64,000 bases of DNA from Escallonia rubra (lineage: Eukaryota; Streptophyta; Magnoliopsida; Escalloniales; Escalloniaceae), in contig JAVXUO010001062.1 of the NCBI GenBank assembly GCA_033065855.1, positions 558,001 through 622,000 on the forward strand, in the 5' to 3' direction. The position numbers were made by a program, and so were the translations under genes. Position 1 is the first letter of the stretch, and the number at the start of each line of letters is the position of its first letter. Of the stretch, positions 13,690-40,600 are shown piece by piece. The notes under the pieces are model-generated. The model ran no database searches. It was not told the origin of the DNA and saw only the letters and a program-made list of their open reading frames with translations.

Positions 13690-14100
13690 ACTCAGTTGGC
13701 TGGGTGTTATAAAGCCATGTACAAAGTTTTCCAATATGATATGTGATATTCCTTGCTCATACTATAGTATCCGTCGCTAAGGTCCAATCTCAACCTTAGT
13801 CATACATTATCTAGAATATTATGCTCTAGCCATTGTTAGATGTACTAGCAACTCAATCAGTTCTGCCCTATTCGAGTATGCTTTTGTCTCAACCTCTAGC
13901 AACCTAACTAGATAGCCTAATCCGAATTTTTGAGAGTCGGCTCTAATATCATCTGTAATGAATCCGGTTCCCGGCTTCACTATAGGGTAATGCCTCATTT
14001 AAAAGGACTAGCCAAGTAGGTACTTATGTGTTATTTGGTTAGGTCTCACAAAGCCATTCACAAAGTCTCTTGCATCCGATGTGGAACATAAAAAAAATCT
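13690..14100 (-). mobile_element. degraded TRIM retroelement
   Basis: Minus-strand relative of the TRIMs at 36613-37684. The right LTR begins at about 13954 (TGTAATGAATCC) and keeps the blocks for TAGGGTAATGCCTC, GGACTAGCCAAGTAGGTACTT and GCATCCGATGTGG. Just left of it is the inverted primer-binding site GGCTCTAATATCATC (13939-13953). The interior keeps GTCGCTAAGG as in the intact copies. The left LTR is reduced to about 60 bp (TTTTCCAATATGATATGTGATATTCC). Identity to the intact copies is visibly lower, so this is an old insertion. Confidence 0.7.
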
Positions 14101-34615: not shown

Positions 34616-37600
34616 TCAAGATTCTGCAGAAGCAGACTGCATGCAGCAAAACCACTTTTTCTGCAAGAAACGTATTCACAGCATCAAAACTAAGAAATAT
34701 CCAACCCTTGTTCGTTGAACAGACGATCCTATTATACGGAAATGAATCCTTTCAGAGGGGAAGATGGTGGTTTTGGTTTTTGAGAATGTACTCTTACCAG
34801 TCATAACCACTTGGTATTTTGGAAACTTCACAAAGAGAACCTCGATAACCAGCCGCAAAGATTGGCATGATAATCATCCCAACCACTTGGATATAGTCAT
34901 TATGCCACTAACATTAGTTATAAAATACGACCTCCATACATTGCGGACCAAATAGGAGTAACCAAGTCAGCATGTTGGGTATTCAACATTAAGGACGTAC
35001 ATGAGAATAATAAAAGGGAACTTGGAGACAAAAGAAAGCTCATTGCAACTGATGCAGGAATGTTTCAGTTTTGAATTTAGGAATCTAAAAGCTAGTTCTT
35101 AGGAAGAAAAGGAGAATATGTATTAATGATTTAGGTATCTGTAATTGCATCAGATAAAGAAGTGTGCACGTATATACAGAGTTAGAACCTTGACAGCAAA
35201 CAGAAGCAGGGTCTACAGAGTGACAGAAAGGGAAAAGGGGACACTACTATGCTACTTGTTGCAGCGGAGCATTTGAGATCAACCGAACAAGAGAATTCTA
35301 CTTCACAAATCCTCATCCACCTATTAGAGGTCAACTACATGAATCCTTTCATACGGAAGTATTAGATCAAAAGAGAGCATGCAAATTCTGAGTGCATTGC
35401 CTAAAAGCTGGAGTAACAAACCAAGATGTGCAGGTAACCTAGTAATACAGCAGTTGCTGCAACTTACAGATTGAGGCTTTCCGAGAGTTGCTCCATGCTT
35501 GAAGACAGAGTCATCCTTTGGTGGTGAGTCAGGCTTGCCACCTGTCTTTTTCTCATTTCTAGCCTTGTTAAAAATCACTGTGAATCCCTCAGCTGAGGCT
35601 GGATCATTAACATCCCATTCACCAAACTTTGGCAATGGTCGACCCTTTTCCTGTGAACATTGAAATTTTTCTTAAGGACTCTCAAAGATGTTTCAAGGCA
35701 GAAAAAGAAACGGGCAAGTTGAAAATAAAAAATCTAATACGGAAAATGGTATAGCGATATTGGTAATATGAAACAATTCACTGCCCAAGAATCATGACAG
35801 TAATATGTTATGAGATGCAAGTATCAAGTTCCACTAGCGAGATTCAGGTCAATGGCTGAACCATTTCTACCAGTACGAACATGCTTATCACTATTGACCC
35901 GGTCATATATTCCCCTTAATGCAGGGAAGTTATGTAGGTAGCTTTCAATAGAATAATACAGGAAAAAAATATTCATATAAAAATTGGGGTAAATTACACT
36001 CAACAGCATATTACACTCGCTACCCCTCACATTTGGGAAACTACACTGTCACCCCTTGCCGTTAGTTTTTCGGTTGATGATGTTAACTTTTTGGGCATAA
36101 TGGCTTAGTTGCACTTATCAATGCATCTAATTTGCACTTTAGACCATCAAAGACAACATTGTGCTTTGATTGACACCTCAGAGTATCCAACCACCCCAAA
36201 CCCTTCAAATACCCATCTCAAACCTGAAATCAACTACTCCAAAAAGAAAAAATCACATCTGAAATTTCATTAGATCAAAACTTGACTCCACGCTGCATCT
36301 ACGTGCCAAAATAACCAAAAACCGAAATGCAACAATAAACAAAACCCCAAAACACCAGTCGGACAATGTCGCCTCCTCTGCGGCTGCAAGAGGATGAAGG
36401 AGGGTTGGGTGGGGATGAGATCTCGAAGAGCGGAAGTCGATTGGGGTTTAGCCAATTAAGTTTCATCAAGACAAAACCATTTTTTTGAGATTCGATTCTT
36501 AATTTGGGTTTCAACGTTGCAATCAGGGGAGGCAGTAACCCAAATAACGAATAGAGTTCTCTTGGTCAGTTGGGTCCATTGCTATCCAAAATCAAAAGAT
36601 AGAGAAATTAGGTGTAACACGACCCCACCACAGGGCAATGCCTCCCTCAAAAGGGCTAGCCAAGTAGATACTTTTTGAGTTCATGGGCAGGGTCGTATAA
36701 GGCCAATCACAAATTATCCCACATCCAATGTGGGATATCACAATCTCCCCACCTTGTGTCTTAGCGTCTTCGCTAAGGCTCGATAACACATAGCCCATAA
36801 TCTTCCTCTCTAGCCGATGTGAGATATACCCGGCTCACCCTTTGTTGTCCTAACTATCCCCTTGATGTATTATATACACGGGCTTACCTTTGTTTTCCCC
36901 AACCATCGGCAATTCGACTGGATAGCTTAGCCCGAGCTTCCGAAAGTCGGCTCTGATACCATCTATAACGACCCAGTCCACGACCCCACCATAGGGCGAT
37001 GCCTCCCTCATAAGGGCTAGCCAAGTAGGTACTTAAGAGTTCATGGGAAAGGTTTTATAAGGCCAATCACAAATTATCTCACATTCGATGTGGGATATCA
37101 CACCACATCAGATGTGGGATATCACACCACATCAGATGTGGGATATCACACCATATCAGATGTGGGATTATTTGTAATTGGCCTTATAAGACATTGTGAT
37201 ATCCCACATCGGATGTGGGATAATTTGTGATTAGCCTTATAAGACCCTGCCCATGAACTCAAAAAGTACCTACTAGGCTAGCCCTTTCGAGGGAGGCATT
37301 GCTCTGTGGTGGGGCTGTGGACCAGATCATTACAGATGGTATCAAAGCCAACTCTTGAAAGCTCGGGTTGGGCTATTTAGTCGGGTTGCCAATGGTTGGG
37401 CGAAATGAAGGCAAGCACGGGTATATCCAACATCAAGAGGATGGTTGGGATAACGAAGGGTGAGCCGGGTATCTCCCTAGAGAGGAAGATTCTGGTCTGT
37501 GTGATAGAGCCTTAGCGAGGACGCTAAGGCATAAGGTGGGGAGATTGTGATATCCCACATCGGATGTGAGATGATTTGTGATTGGCCTTATAAGACCCTA

Positions 37601-40600
37601 CCCATGAACTCATAAGTACCTATTTGGCTAGCCCTTATGAGGGAGGCATCGCCCTGTGGTGGGGCCGCAGACTGGGTCGTTACATTAGGGTTCTTGCCCT
37701 TTAGAGTATTTGACTTGGGGCTTATATATATTTCTTGAAAAGTAAATGGATTGAAAGATCACGAAGGGAGGAAGTTGAGACAAGGACCCAAATGTGAAGG
37801 GAAGTGAGTATAATTTCCAACATCTGAGGGGTGGCAAGTGTAATAGGCCCAAAACTGAGGGGGCATTAATGTCATTTACCCTTGCAAGTGGCATCGGTAA
37901 CATTTAATGGACTCACATCAACAATCATCGTAATAACTTAGCAGCAGCTTCACTTAGAGGATGTCAACAAGCATAAAGAAGGACACTAGATGGCTACCTC
38001 TTGGATGCCCATCCAAACTTCACTGAATGGTCTGAATCAGTAAAGCTTAAATAAATAACAAGTAAAAAGACACCAAACTGGAACAACAAGCCCTCTTTGT
38101 TGGATGAAATAAATCAAGATGTGACAGAATCACCTGCCTTGGGTACTTTAAAGACAATTGAAGGCAAACTGAGAGAAGAAACAAGTACTGATGCAGACCA
38201 CATCGCAACTCTTTTCTAATTTTGGACTGTACACATGACGCTCTAGATGATAACCAATAAAAAAAGCAACTTTACACTCAGAAGCACTTGGCCCAATTGA
38301 GTAGGCGCCCCATAGCCTCAATGACAGTCTCATGTTTGATTTTTACTACTGCAACTGCAATGCACCTATTTTTTATATACACCAAGCAGGGTGTACTCAT
38401 AACTCTAATCTGGTGAATCGCAGTTTTAAGCGTACAAGTGAGGACTTTGACCAATTAACTTACATGCCATGATTTGAGCCTATGCAAATCAACAAAGTTT
38501 GTGATTGACCAATGTGGGAGAACTTAACCAACGCAAATTGCCAATTTAAGAAGACTACCTTACTTATATGGCTCTCAAGCAATGCAGCTGTAAGAAACTA
38601 CTGCACATTAAAGGTTTGTTTGTGAGGGGTACTAGGGAAAATTCTCCTTTTTGCTGCAAAAGTGAGTGATTACTAATTAGCTAAGTAGCGCAGACACGGA
38701 CACCGCGTACAACGCAGACACCGCAATTTCCACAATAACAAACGTTGGAGACCACACGACACGGTTAAATACGCATATGTTTATGTTATATATATGTTTA
38801 TATAAGTTTCAAGCACGTTCTTCCCTCATGAAAATGTAAAACAACAACTAATAAATGATAAATTAAAGTCATACTTGAAATCAAGTTACTATAGATAATA
38901 CGGGAGTGCAAGATCCCATAAAAACAAGCCAAAAGGAAAAGATAAATGGCTTTCGTCTCTTCCATCCACCAAGATTAATCAACATAAATTGTCTCATCAC
39001 GTTTATTGTCCTCCGGACCTCCATCATCAACCTTTCCCTGCACACACTAATCAATCGAGAGATTCGTTTTCTATGTTAGATTGCCTTCGTCTAGGGCTGG
39101 CAAAATATGACCCAACCCATACAATCCAACCCAAGCCATTGATTTTTTGACCCTACGGGTCAACCCCCACAAACTAGTGGGATGGGTAACTCGACCCGCG
39201 GGTCACACTTGGGTTGCTCACATAAACAAGGGTCAGAGTGGGTTGGGTCACTCGACCCACGGGTCCAAATAGGTCGCTACATAAACAAAGCAAAAGATCC
39301 CTAAATCAGACTTCACTTCACCCCCGTTGATTTCCTATTCAAGCGGCGTGACAACCACCACCTATCGTCGGCAGAGCCACTCTCCATCACGTGAGCAGCT
39401 TTCCCACCACCAGCATTCTCTCTCTCCATTGCCGACGGTTCACCTCTTTGTCGTTGGCACGCCTGTTGGCTTTCTATCCAAGCGGTGCCTTCGACAGTGA
39501 CAACCACCACTACCTCCGGCAGAGCCTTAGCGGCTTTCCCCACCTCCAGCAGTCTCTCTCCCCATCGCCGGCAATTCTTCTCTTTGTCGTCGGCAGTTCC
39601 TCTCTCCATCGCCGACAGTCTCCATTTCAATTTCTCTTGCTCCTAAACCCTAGTCTCTGTCTTCTCTCAGATCAGGTATTGTTTCTCTATACTTATTGAT
39701 CTTATCATGCTATCTTTTTTATACTATTTTGGTTGGGTTTCTGTAATTGGGTTTTTCGTGATTATTCCTCTTTCTTTATACTTTTTGGTCTGATGGGTTT
39801 GAGTAAATGGATTTGATTCTTTCTTATGCTTAGCGCTTGTTTCTGTTTTTGGCATTTCTTATGAATGTGAGTATGAACTCAGATTCCAGATTTTGGAGTA
39901 TGTCGCTTGATTCTTCGGAAGTGGTTCTTTGTGACTTGATATGTAGAGAATATATGAATATCTGCAGTTTGTATGTTGTGAACTTCGAATTTTTAATACT
40001 TTGATACATGGTATTGATTCTTTGAATGAACTTCAAATATATATTTGAAGTTTGTATGTTGTGTGTACTGATTTCATGTGATGTTGTAGGTTTCAATACT
40101 CTGATACATGGTATTGCAAGGTGGTTGAGGTGATTGCTGGTGTTTAGTTAGTGGAGAGTGGTAGGAAAAAGGGTGTACCCTGATATGGTTACTTATAACA
40201 CTTTGATTGATGGGTTCTCTAGGATTGGAGATTTCAATCAGGCCAAGCGTCTTATGGACGAGATTTTGCAGTCACTGAAGGAGGAGGACAATAACAACAA
40301 TAAAGATTTTGTTGTAGGAGGGATGGAGTTACAATCAAATGTGTTCCGCACACCACGTCCATCAGTAGGTATTGTAAGAACAGAAGGCTTGAGGAAGCAC
40401 CTGCCCTCTCTGAGGATATGCTTGGAAATGGGATTTTACCTGATGTAGTTGCTTATAGTTCTGTCACAGATGGCCTTTGCAAGCATGATCAGCTTGCTGA
40501 AGCTAAAGTGATGTTTGAGGAGATAAGAAGGTGATGTTTGAAATTGCATTGCTGCTTAATGTCTAGAAGAAAGAATTTTTAATGTCCAATTTTCAGATTT

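Follow-up and report, generated by a model that had tools for sequence, protein, structure and literature searches.

Head-to-head TRIM dimers in Escallonia rubra: junction bases and shared target duplications point to joining of linear cDNAs before a single integration

Loci with several units have been described for terminal-repeat retrotransposons in miniature (TRIMs), with tandem arrays reported in the available parts of the articles on Cassandra (PMC7215508) and Wukong (PMC4528315). The closest described structure is that of the maize element Zma-SMART, for which a figure legend (Gao et al. 2016, PMC4717578, Fig. 2 legend, item C) lists a tandemly arrayed TRIM with two inverted TRIMs and the target site duplication CTTCA, the structures in this figure having been verified by polymerase chain reaction (PCR) and sequencing. 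The portion of this text available to us does not give the facing ends, the junction bases or the mechanism of the inverted structure, and the words ‘rolling’, ‘template switch’ and ‘unequal’ are absent from it. In the accessible parts of the literature on retroviruses and retrotransposons, the junctions of circles with two long terminal repeats (LTRs) are attributed to end-joining (PMC12786077, PMC1905944), and integrase is described as trimming a few bases (two in HIV-1; PMC1905944) off each end of the complementary DNA (cDNA). Here we describe, in a window of 64,000 nucleotides of Escallonia rubra (i.e. the whole stretch of DNA that was analysed; contig JAVXUO010001062.1, positions 558,001 to 622,000), a head-to-head TRIM dimer at 36613-37684, whose units lie in opposite orientation with the U3 ends (unique 3' region; 5' LTRs) pointing inward, at exactly the coordinates proposed in an earlier note made from the sequence. 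As in the legend on maize, two inverted TRIMs are enclosed by one 5-bp duplication (in the window and in 6/6 testable loci joined U3 to U3), here in a different family and plant.

Target duplications and junction bases

The search for further head-to-head copies, called for by the earlier note, covered the genome from which the window comes (566,129,122 bases in 3222 contigs) and used as queries the whole dimer (1783 first-look candidates, 40 scored) and short junction patterns. It brought at least ten more U3-U3 loci, some truncated, so that with the window at least 11 are recognised (the others being C1379, C1937, C3181, C1455, C487, C558, C1290, C1428, C2221 and C2527); C558 and C2221 each have an arm cut to <40 bp, C487 also has a cut arm, and one unit of C1290 is a solo LTR. 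All six U3-U3 loci with both outer U5 (unique 5' region) ends intact carry a shared 5-bp duplication around the whole unit (window TTAGG, C1455 ATATG, C2527 GCCAT, C1290 TTTAC, C1937 GGTGT, C1428 CATAG), the left end of C1937 being taken from L060, past the larger element in its left arm; C1379, C3181, C558, C2221 and C487 have lost an outer end and fall outside this test. In the window, TTAGG stands outside both far LTRs and the inner borders have no duplication, as had been noted before. Moreover, the C1428 dimer sits within an LTR of another TRIM, around which a separate duplication, CTAGA, is seen, and the pre-insertion site can therefore be read: rejoined without the dimer, the interrupted LTR is 138 bases long, with 17 sites and one gap setting it apart from its partner LTR. 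These observations support the earlier proposal that a dimeric inverted molecule was integrated in a single event.

Two other histories of insertion have to be weighed against these duplications. Two separate TRIM insertions in opposite orientation, with the intervening DNA and the inner duplications lost and TTAGG matching by chance, would agree with the irregular centre and with internal regions that are 21% apart in the window; as a chance match of five bases is expected at about 1 in 1024 per locus, yet six of six testable loci match, and as the same AT-AT centre recurs at loci with unlike flanks, we regard this history as quite improbable. The alternative raised by the earlier note, a nested insertion of a second TRIM into the first followed by inversion, has in its favour that nested TRIMs do occur in the genome (e.g. 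the dimer in the LTR at C1428). In the window, neither an inner duplication nor an interrupted outer element is present, and both copies of TTAGG are flush with U5 ends, which a repeat-mediated inversion would not be expected to yield; we deem it the least credible of the histories considered.

The bases at the junctions bear on the state of the molecules that were joined. In ordinary copies AT lies between the polypurine tract and the 3' LTR, and GA between the 5' LTR and the primer binding site. The arrangement GATATTACA-AT-AT-TGTAATATC is found at C1290, C1428 and C2527, and again at C2221 with one tip base changed (the control of the strict U3-U3 search gave 0); C558 has three bases between the two ATs, C1937 reads GATATTA-AT-TGTAATATC, and one tip at C1455 is short by 23 bases. 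AT precedes the right-hand tip in 8/10 of the U3-U3 loci that retain that tip. Head-to-tail (U5-U3) joins show the corresponding bases, exactly as GA-AT at C820/C821 and otherwise as GA-T-AT (C708, C1188), GA-TT-AT (C1395) and GA-TA-AT (C2025), while C2158 and C2914 have AT with AA or A instead of GA, and at C418 GA is kept and the U3 tip is trimmed. The duplications of these head-to-tail loci are perfect over 5 bp at C708, C1395, C2025, C820/C821 and C2914, match at 4/5 positions at C1188 and are absent from the degraded C2158 (C418 is outside this test). Since AT and GA, which integrase would be expected to remove, are kept at the junctions, we infer that untrimmed ends were joined before integration. 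The copies of the LTR tip in the window centre, which the earlier note had suggested as a means of building the dimer, look secondary, given the plain ATAT centres of C1290, C1428, C2527 and C2221; the old locus C487 has a tip duplication of its own, unlike that of the window.

The junction of C1379 (L003:1979-1990) contains a filler, TCTGATACCAAT, that resembles the complement of the primer binding site followed by AT. We take it to be like the 3' end of the priming transfer RNA (tRNA) plus AT, and it may be what is left of a primer trapped when the ends were joined.

Taken together, the duplications and the junction bases, both of which are directly observed, make it in our view highly probable that the window dimer arose from unprocessed linear cDNAs that were end-joined at U3 and then inserted by one integrase reaction via two U5 ends. 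The enzymes and the order of events would be as follows: two linear double-stranded TRIM cDNAs, untrimmed by integrase (AT-TGT... at U3, ...ACA-GA at U5), would be fused U3 end to U3 end by cellular end-joining; the fused molecule would carry a U5 end on each side; an integrase, presumably from a larger relative, would insert it via both U5 ends in one reaction, giving the 5-bp duplication TTAGG; and the palindromic centre would be remodelled later, acquiring the tip array and losing its symmetry.

Source of the arms and crosswise LTRs

At several loci the arms come from two source copies. The LTRs of C1455 are identical inside each unit over the compared bases, with one private LTR base parting the units, and its internal regions differ at 7 sites and 1 indel; at C2527 the two-against-two sites group the LTRs by unit (5/5; crosswise tree rejected, p-AU 0.002, the p-value of the approximately unbiased test) and the internal regions differ at 14 sites and 1 indel. 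C1428 has two distinct LTR types, and C3181 shows the non-mirror LTR order a-b-a/b-a-b, as expected of two cDNAs from one tandem source array. These loci are difficult to reconcile with the hairpin-primed reverse transcription put forward by the earlier note, in which snap-back copying at the near-palindromic U3 tip would make a cDNA its own inverted dimer. In favour of such copying, the minus strand has U3 at its 3' end, the tip of the window LTR is indeed a near-palindrome, and the arms of C1379 are nearly identical (C1379 would still permit the process). The unlike arms of C1455 and C2527, the two LTR types of C1428 and the order at C3181 argue against self-copying as a general route; furthermore, AT-AT leaves no loop, and head-to-tail junctions carry the same end bases. 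Hairpin priming is thus not needed, and we consider it improbable for the window dimer.

The comparison of the four window LTRs, proposed in the earlier note, places the closest LTRs across units: the left outer and right inner LTRs (Lout, Rin) differ at 9/130 positions and the left inner and right outer ones (Lin, Rout) at 12/139, against 18/139 and 14/129 within units, 13/129 between the outer and 21/139 between the inner LTRs. The two-against-two columns stand at 5:1:0 (two of the five are 3 columns apart, and one is a gap), and the crosswise grouping has a parsimony bootstrap of 0.96. At C1428 the score is 6:0 in favour of crosswise pairing of the LTRs, the within-unit tree being rejected (p-AU 0.0002), and a 35-base word of one LTR type is confined, across the genome, to the two LTRs concerned. 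Crosswise LTRs would be accounted for if the inverted internal regions had recombined later and so flipped the middle; the pattern that suggests this flip is firm at C1428 and no more than suggestive in the window.

An alternative that concerns the crosswise LTRs only, and is compatible with U3 end-joining, is that co-packaged cDNAs swapped plus-strand strong-stop DNA during reverse transcription, with no later flip. The crosswise pattern of C1428 would equally result from it, as could the unlike LTRs within units of C558 and C1290, and the tail-to-tail pair C3192 has 9 LTR differences in one unit and 3 in the other. On the other side, 12/12 single TRIMs have just 0 to 2 LTR differences (these being young copies, picked by similarity), and we hold the exchange to be unlikely, if still worth considering, as the source of the pattern.

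Most of the differences between the LTRs of a single unit at C558 (L064) and C1290 (L063) fall in the first 60 bases (types b and c), which gives the impression of a U3 taken from another copy.

Junction types across the genome

The three possible junctions were counted with strict patterns of equal design (9 bases, a gap of 0-16, 9 bases), which gave 4 U3-U3, 5 U5-U3 and 1 U5-U5 TRIM loci, fairly near the 1:2:1 that random joining would give, and with loose patterns of like design (one trimmed tip allowed), which gave 7 U3-U3 loci, 6 U5-U3 events and 0 U5-U5 (7 vs 0, p = 0.016). This bias of U3-U3 over U5-U5 is a lead, not a result, because the anchor words may differ in conservation. The strict U5-U3 search returned 7 places (5 TRIM, 2 not, i.e. 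C699 and C2733; control 0) and the loose one 8 (7 TRIM, 1 not, i.e. C456; control 0), C820 and C821 being counted as one event as their near flanks are alike. The strict U5-U5 search returned 4 places at two loci (TRIM C3192, non-TRIM C2896) and the loose one 0 (control 4); as the control equalled the strict search (4 places), C3192 rests on annotation and not on the count. Of the 22 places of the loose U3-U3 search, 12 belong to the 7 TRIM loci and C3195 (TRIM fragments only) was left uncounted.

A broader reading, which we advance tentatively and would not put at even chances, is that cDNAs of this TRIM family are regularly joined before they integrate, that U5-U5 dimers, which would depend on two U3 ends, nearly never integrate, and that palindromes flip and centres grow tip arrays after integration. 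U3-U3 dimers would then integrate cleanly because their two U5 ends form a fully working integrase pair.

Several loci have features of their own. C3192 (L052, 1014-2002) is the sole tail-to-tail (U5-U5) TRIM pair found; its join contains an extra U5 piece of 13 bases, and one of its outer LTRs is cut. C3181 (L011, 3595-5283) is a 2+2 head-to-head array flanked by a 39-bp direct repeat, with its right outer LTR cut; these two features suggest capture at a staggered break rather than insertion by integrase. In the left arm of C1937 (L010:1948-2985 (-) with L060:9398-9794) there is a 345-aa Gag frame (PF03732, zinc knuckle) with copies of the same LTR on either side, and a TRIM and a gag-bearing relative seem, from the partly read intervening stretch, to have been joined in one insertion. 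Perfect 5-bp duplications are absent from 7/12 single TRIMs (L017, L019-L022, L025, L027), although their LTRs differ at 0-1 sites.

A number of observations weigh against U3 end-joining with a single integration, or against the flip that may have followed. The window itself has AT on the right side only, because the tip array overlies the join, and C3181 and C487 have T only and AC, respectively, at the junction, both without AT; the flank repeat and cut outer LTR of C3181 are, moreover, no ordinary integrase product. At C1379 the four LTRs have 0-1 differences and the internal regions 1, which self-copying would also give, and a single source is possible there because of this near identity. 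Single TRIMs are a poor yardstick, with perfect 5-bp duplications in only 5/12 (each duplication different), and the loose U3-U3 search returned 9 places without TRIM, with 4 in the reversed control. A search with the left flank only (36440-36612) found no empty-site copy of the window locus, this flank matching only itself in the genome. As to the flip, the likelihood test with outgroups placed the crosswise tree of the window LTRs best and did not reject the within-unit tree (p-AU 0.37), and the unlike LTRs in one unit of C558 are not explained by a simple flip.

The window locus and its relation to known systems

The features of the window dimer are collected in Table 1. The description of two complete TRIMs in the earlier note holds in so far as both units have two LTRs, and has to be qualified for the left outer one, which is shortened near its U5 end; the left inner LTR, in addition, ends in TA where CA is expected. 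The 92-bp centre and its extra 24-bp tip copies are present as described. With LTRs of 130-140 bp and internal regions of 211-221 bp the units were assigned to TRIMs by the size limit in the available part of PMC4717578. TGGTATCARAGCC and AAGGTGGGGAGAT adjoin the LTRs in both units, and the open reading frames across them are short only (longest 80 aa). The primer binding site is presumably of the initiator Met tRNA type.

Table 1. Features of the head-to-head TRIM dimer (window positions)
Feature	Position	Strand	Remarks
TTAGG, left target site duplication copy	36608..36612	.	flush with outer U5 end
Lout, 3' LTR of left TRIM	36613..36742	-	U5 end outward; lacks 10 bp near U5 end
Left TRIM internal region	36743..36963	-	polypurine tract 36743-36755; primer binding site (complement GGCTCTGATACCA) 36949-36961
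Lin, 5' LTR of left TRIM	36964..37102	-	U3 end towards centre
Tandem array of LTR tip, 24-bp unit, 3.7 copies	37080..37168	.	partly inside centre
Centre, 92 bp	37103..37194	.	two extra 24-bp left-tip copies, LTR piece, AT
LTR piece in centre, 42 bp	37151-37192	+	
AT abutting right U3 tip	37193..37194	+	identical to pair between polypurine tract and 3' LTR (37544-37545)
Rin, 5' LTR of right TRIM	37195..37334	+	U3 end towards centre
Right TRIM internal region	37335..37545	+	primer binding site TGGTATCAAAGCC 37337-37349; polypurine tract 37533-37545
Rout, 3' LTR of right TRIM	37546..37684	+	U5 end outward
TTAGG, right target site duplication copy	37685..37689	.	flush with outer U5 end

The inverted arms far exceed what chance would give, with a fold energy at 36650-37645 that is 49 standard deviations below 20 shuffles, as expected of any long inverted repeat. 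Long inverted repeats are a known trigger of small RNAs, and a transcript of the dimer would fold, in keeping with the double-stranded RNA envisaged by the earlier note. The arm mismatches have no G-U excess (28 G-U vs 25 A-C) and there is thus no sign that RNA pairing is kept; among seven loci compared (only the innermost unit pair at C1937) selection for pairing was likewise not detected, with no excess of G-U over A-C in six of them (p 0.36 to 1) and no mismatch of either kind at C1379.

The nearest recognised exon (35324-35671, (-)) encodes a RIN4/NOI domain; the dimer lies upstream of it, at a distance of about 0.95 kb. A position inside a gene intron, as previously assumed, is not established, since this exon stands on one side and no upstream exon was located. 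Imperfect inverted repeats of 52 nt (36006-36057 and 37797-37848; 77% complementary) enclose the whole unit and thus probably mark an older, degraded DNA transposon around it. A distant, degraded relative of the same TRIM, at 13907-14084 (-), has two tip-like palindromes close to its U3 end. Among viral contigs, one exact LTR stretch used as query had 0 matches.

Among the titles and passages covered in the open-licence literature, the available part of Gao et al. (2016) is the sole report of an inverted TRIM pair; in two other papers ‘head-to-head’ refers to marker PCR only, and the Echinococcus TRIM paper has neither ‘inverted’ nor ‘head-to’. No report of junctions of the present kind was found in this literature, which does not establish their absence in print. 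As that maize report exists, the inverted TRIM pair with one duplication is already known, and the present junctions add a mechanism to it. The ends of linear retrotransposon cDNA are difficult to observe in plants by other means; integrated inverted dimers preserve them, and indicate that cDNAs were joined by the cell before insertion and that integrase could use two U5 ends. They are, furthermore, one natural way in which plant genomes come by long inverted repeats, and tallying the three types of junction in different genomes would test the competition between end-joining and integration.

As far as the accessible parts of the cited articles allow a comparison, the Cassandra and Wukong arrays resemble the present loci in being multi-unit TRIM loci, and unequal crossing over was proposed by the authors for those of Wukong (PMC4528315). 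Two-LTR circles resemble them in that cDNA ends are fused by end-joining; in the circles the joins are U5-U3, whereas here U3-U3 and head-to-tail joins are integrated in the genome, and the U3-U3 joins, unlike those of circles, necessarily unite two ends of one kind.

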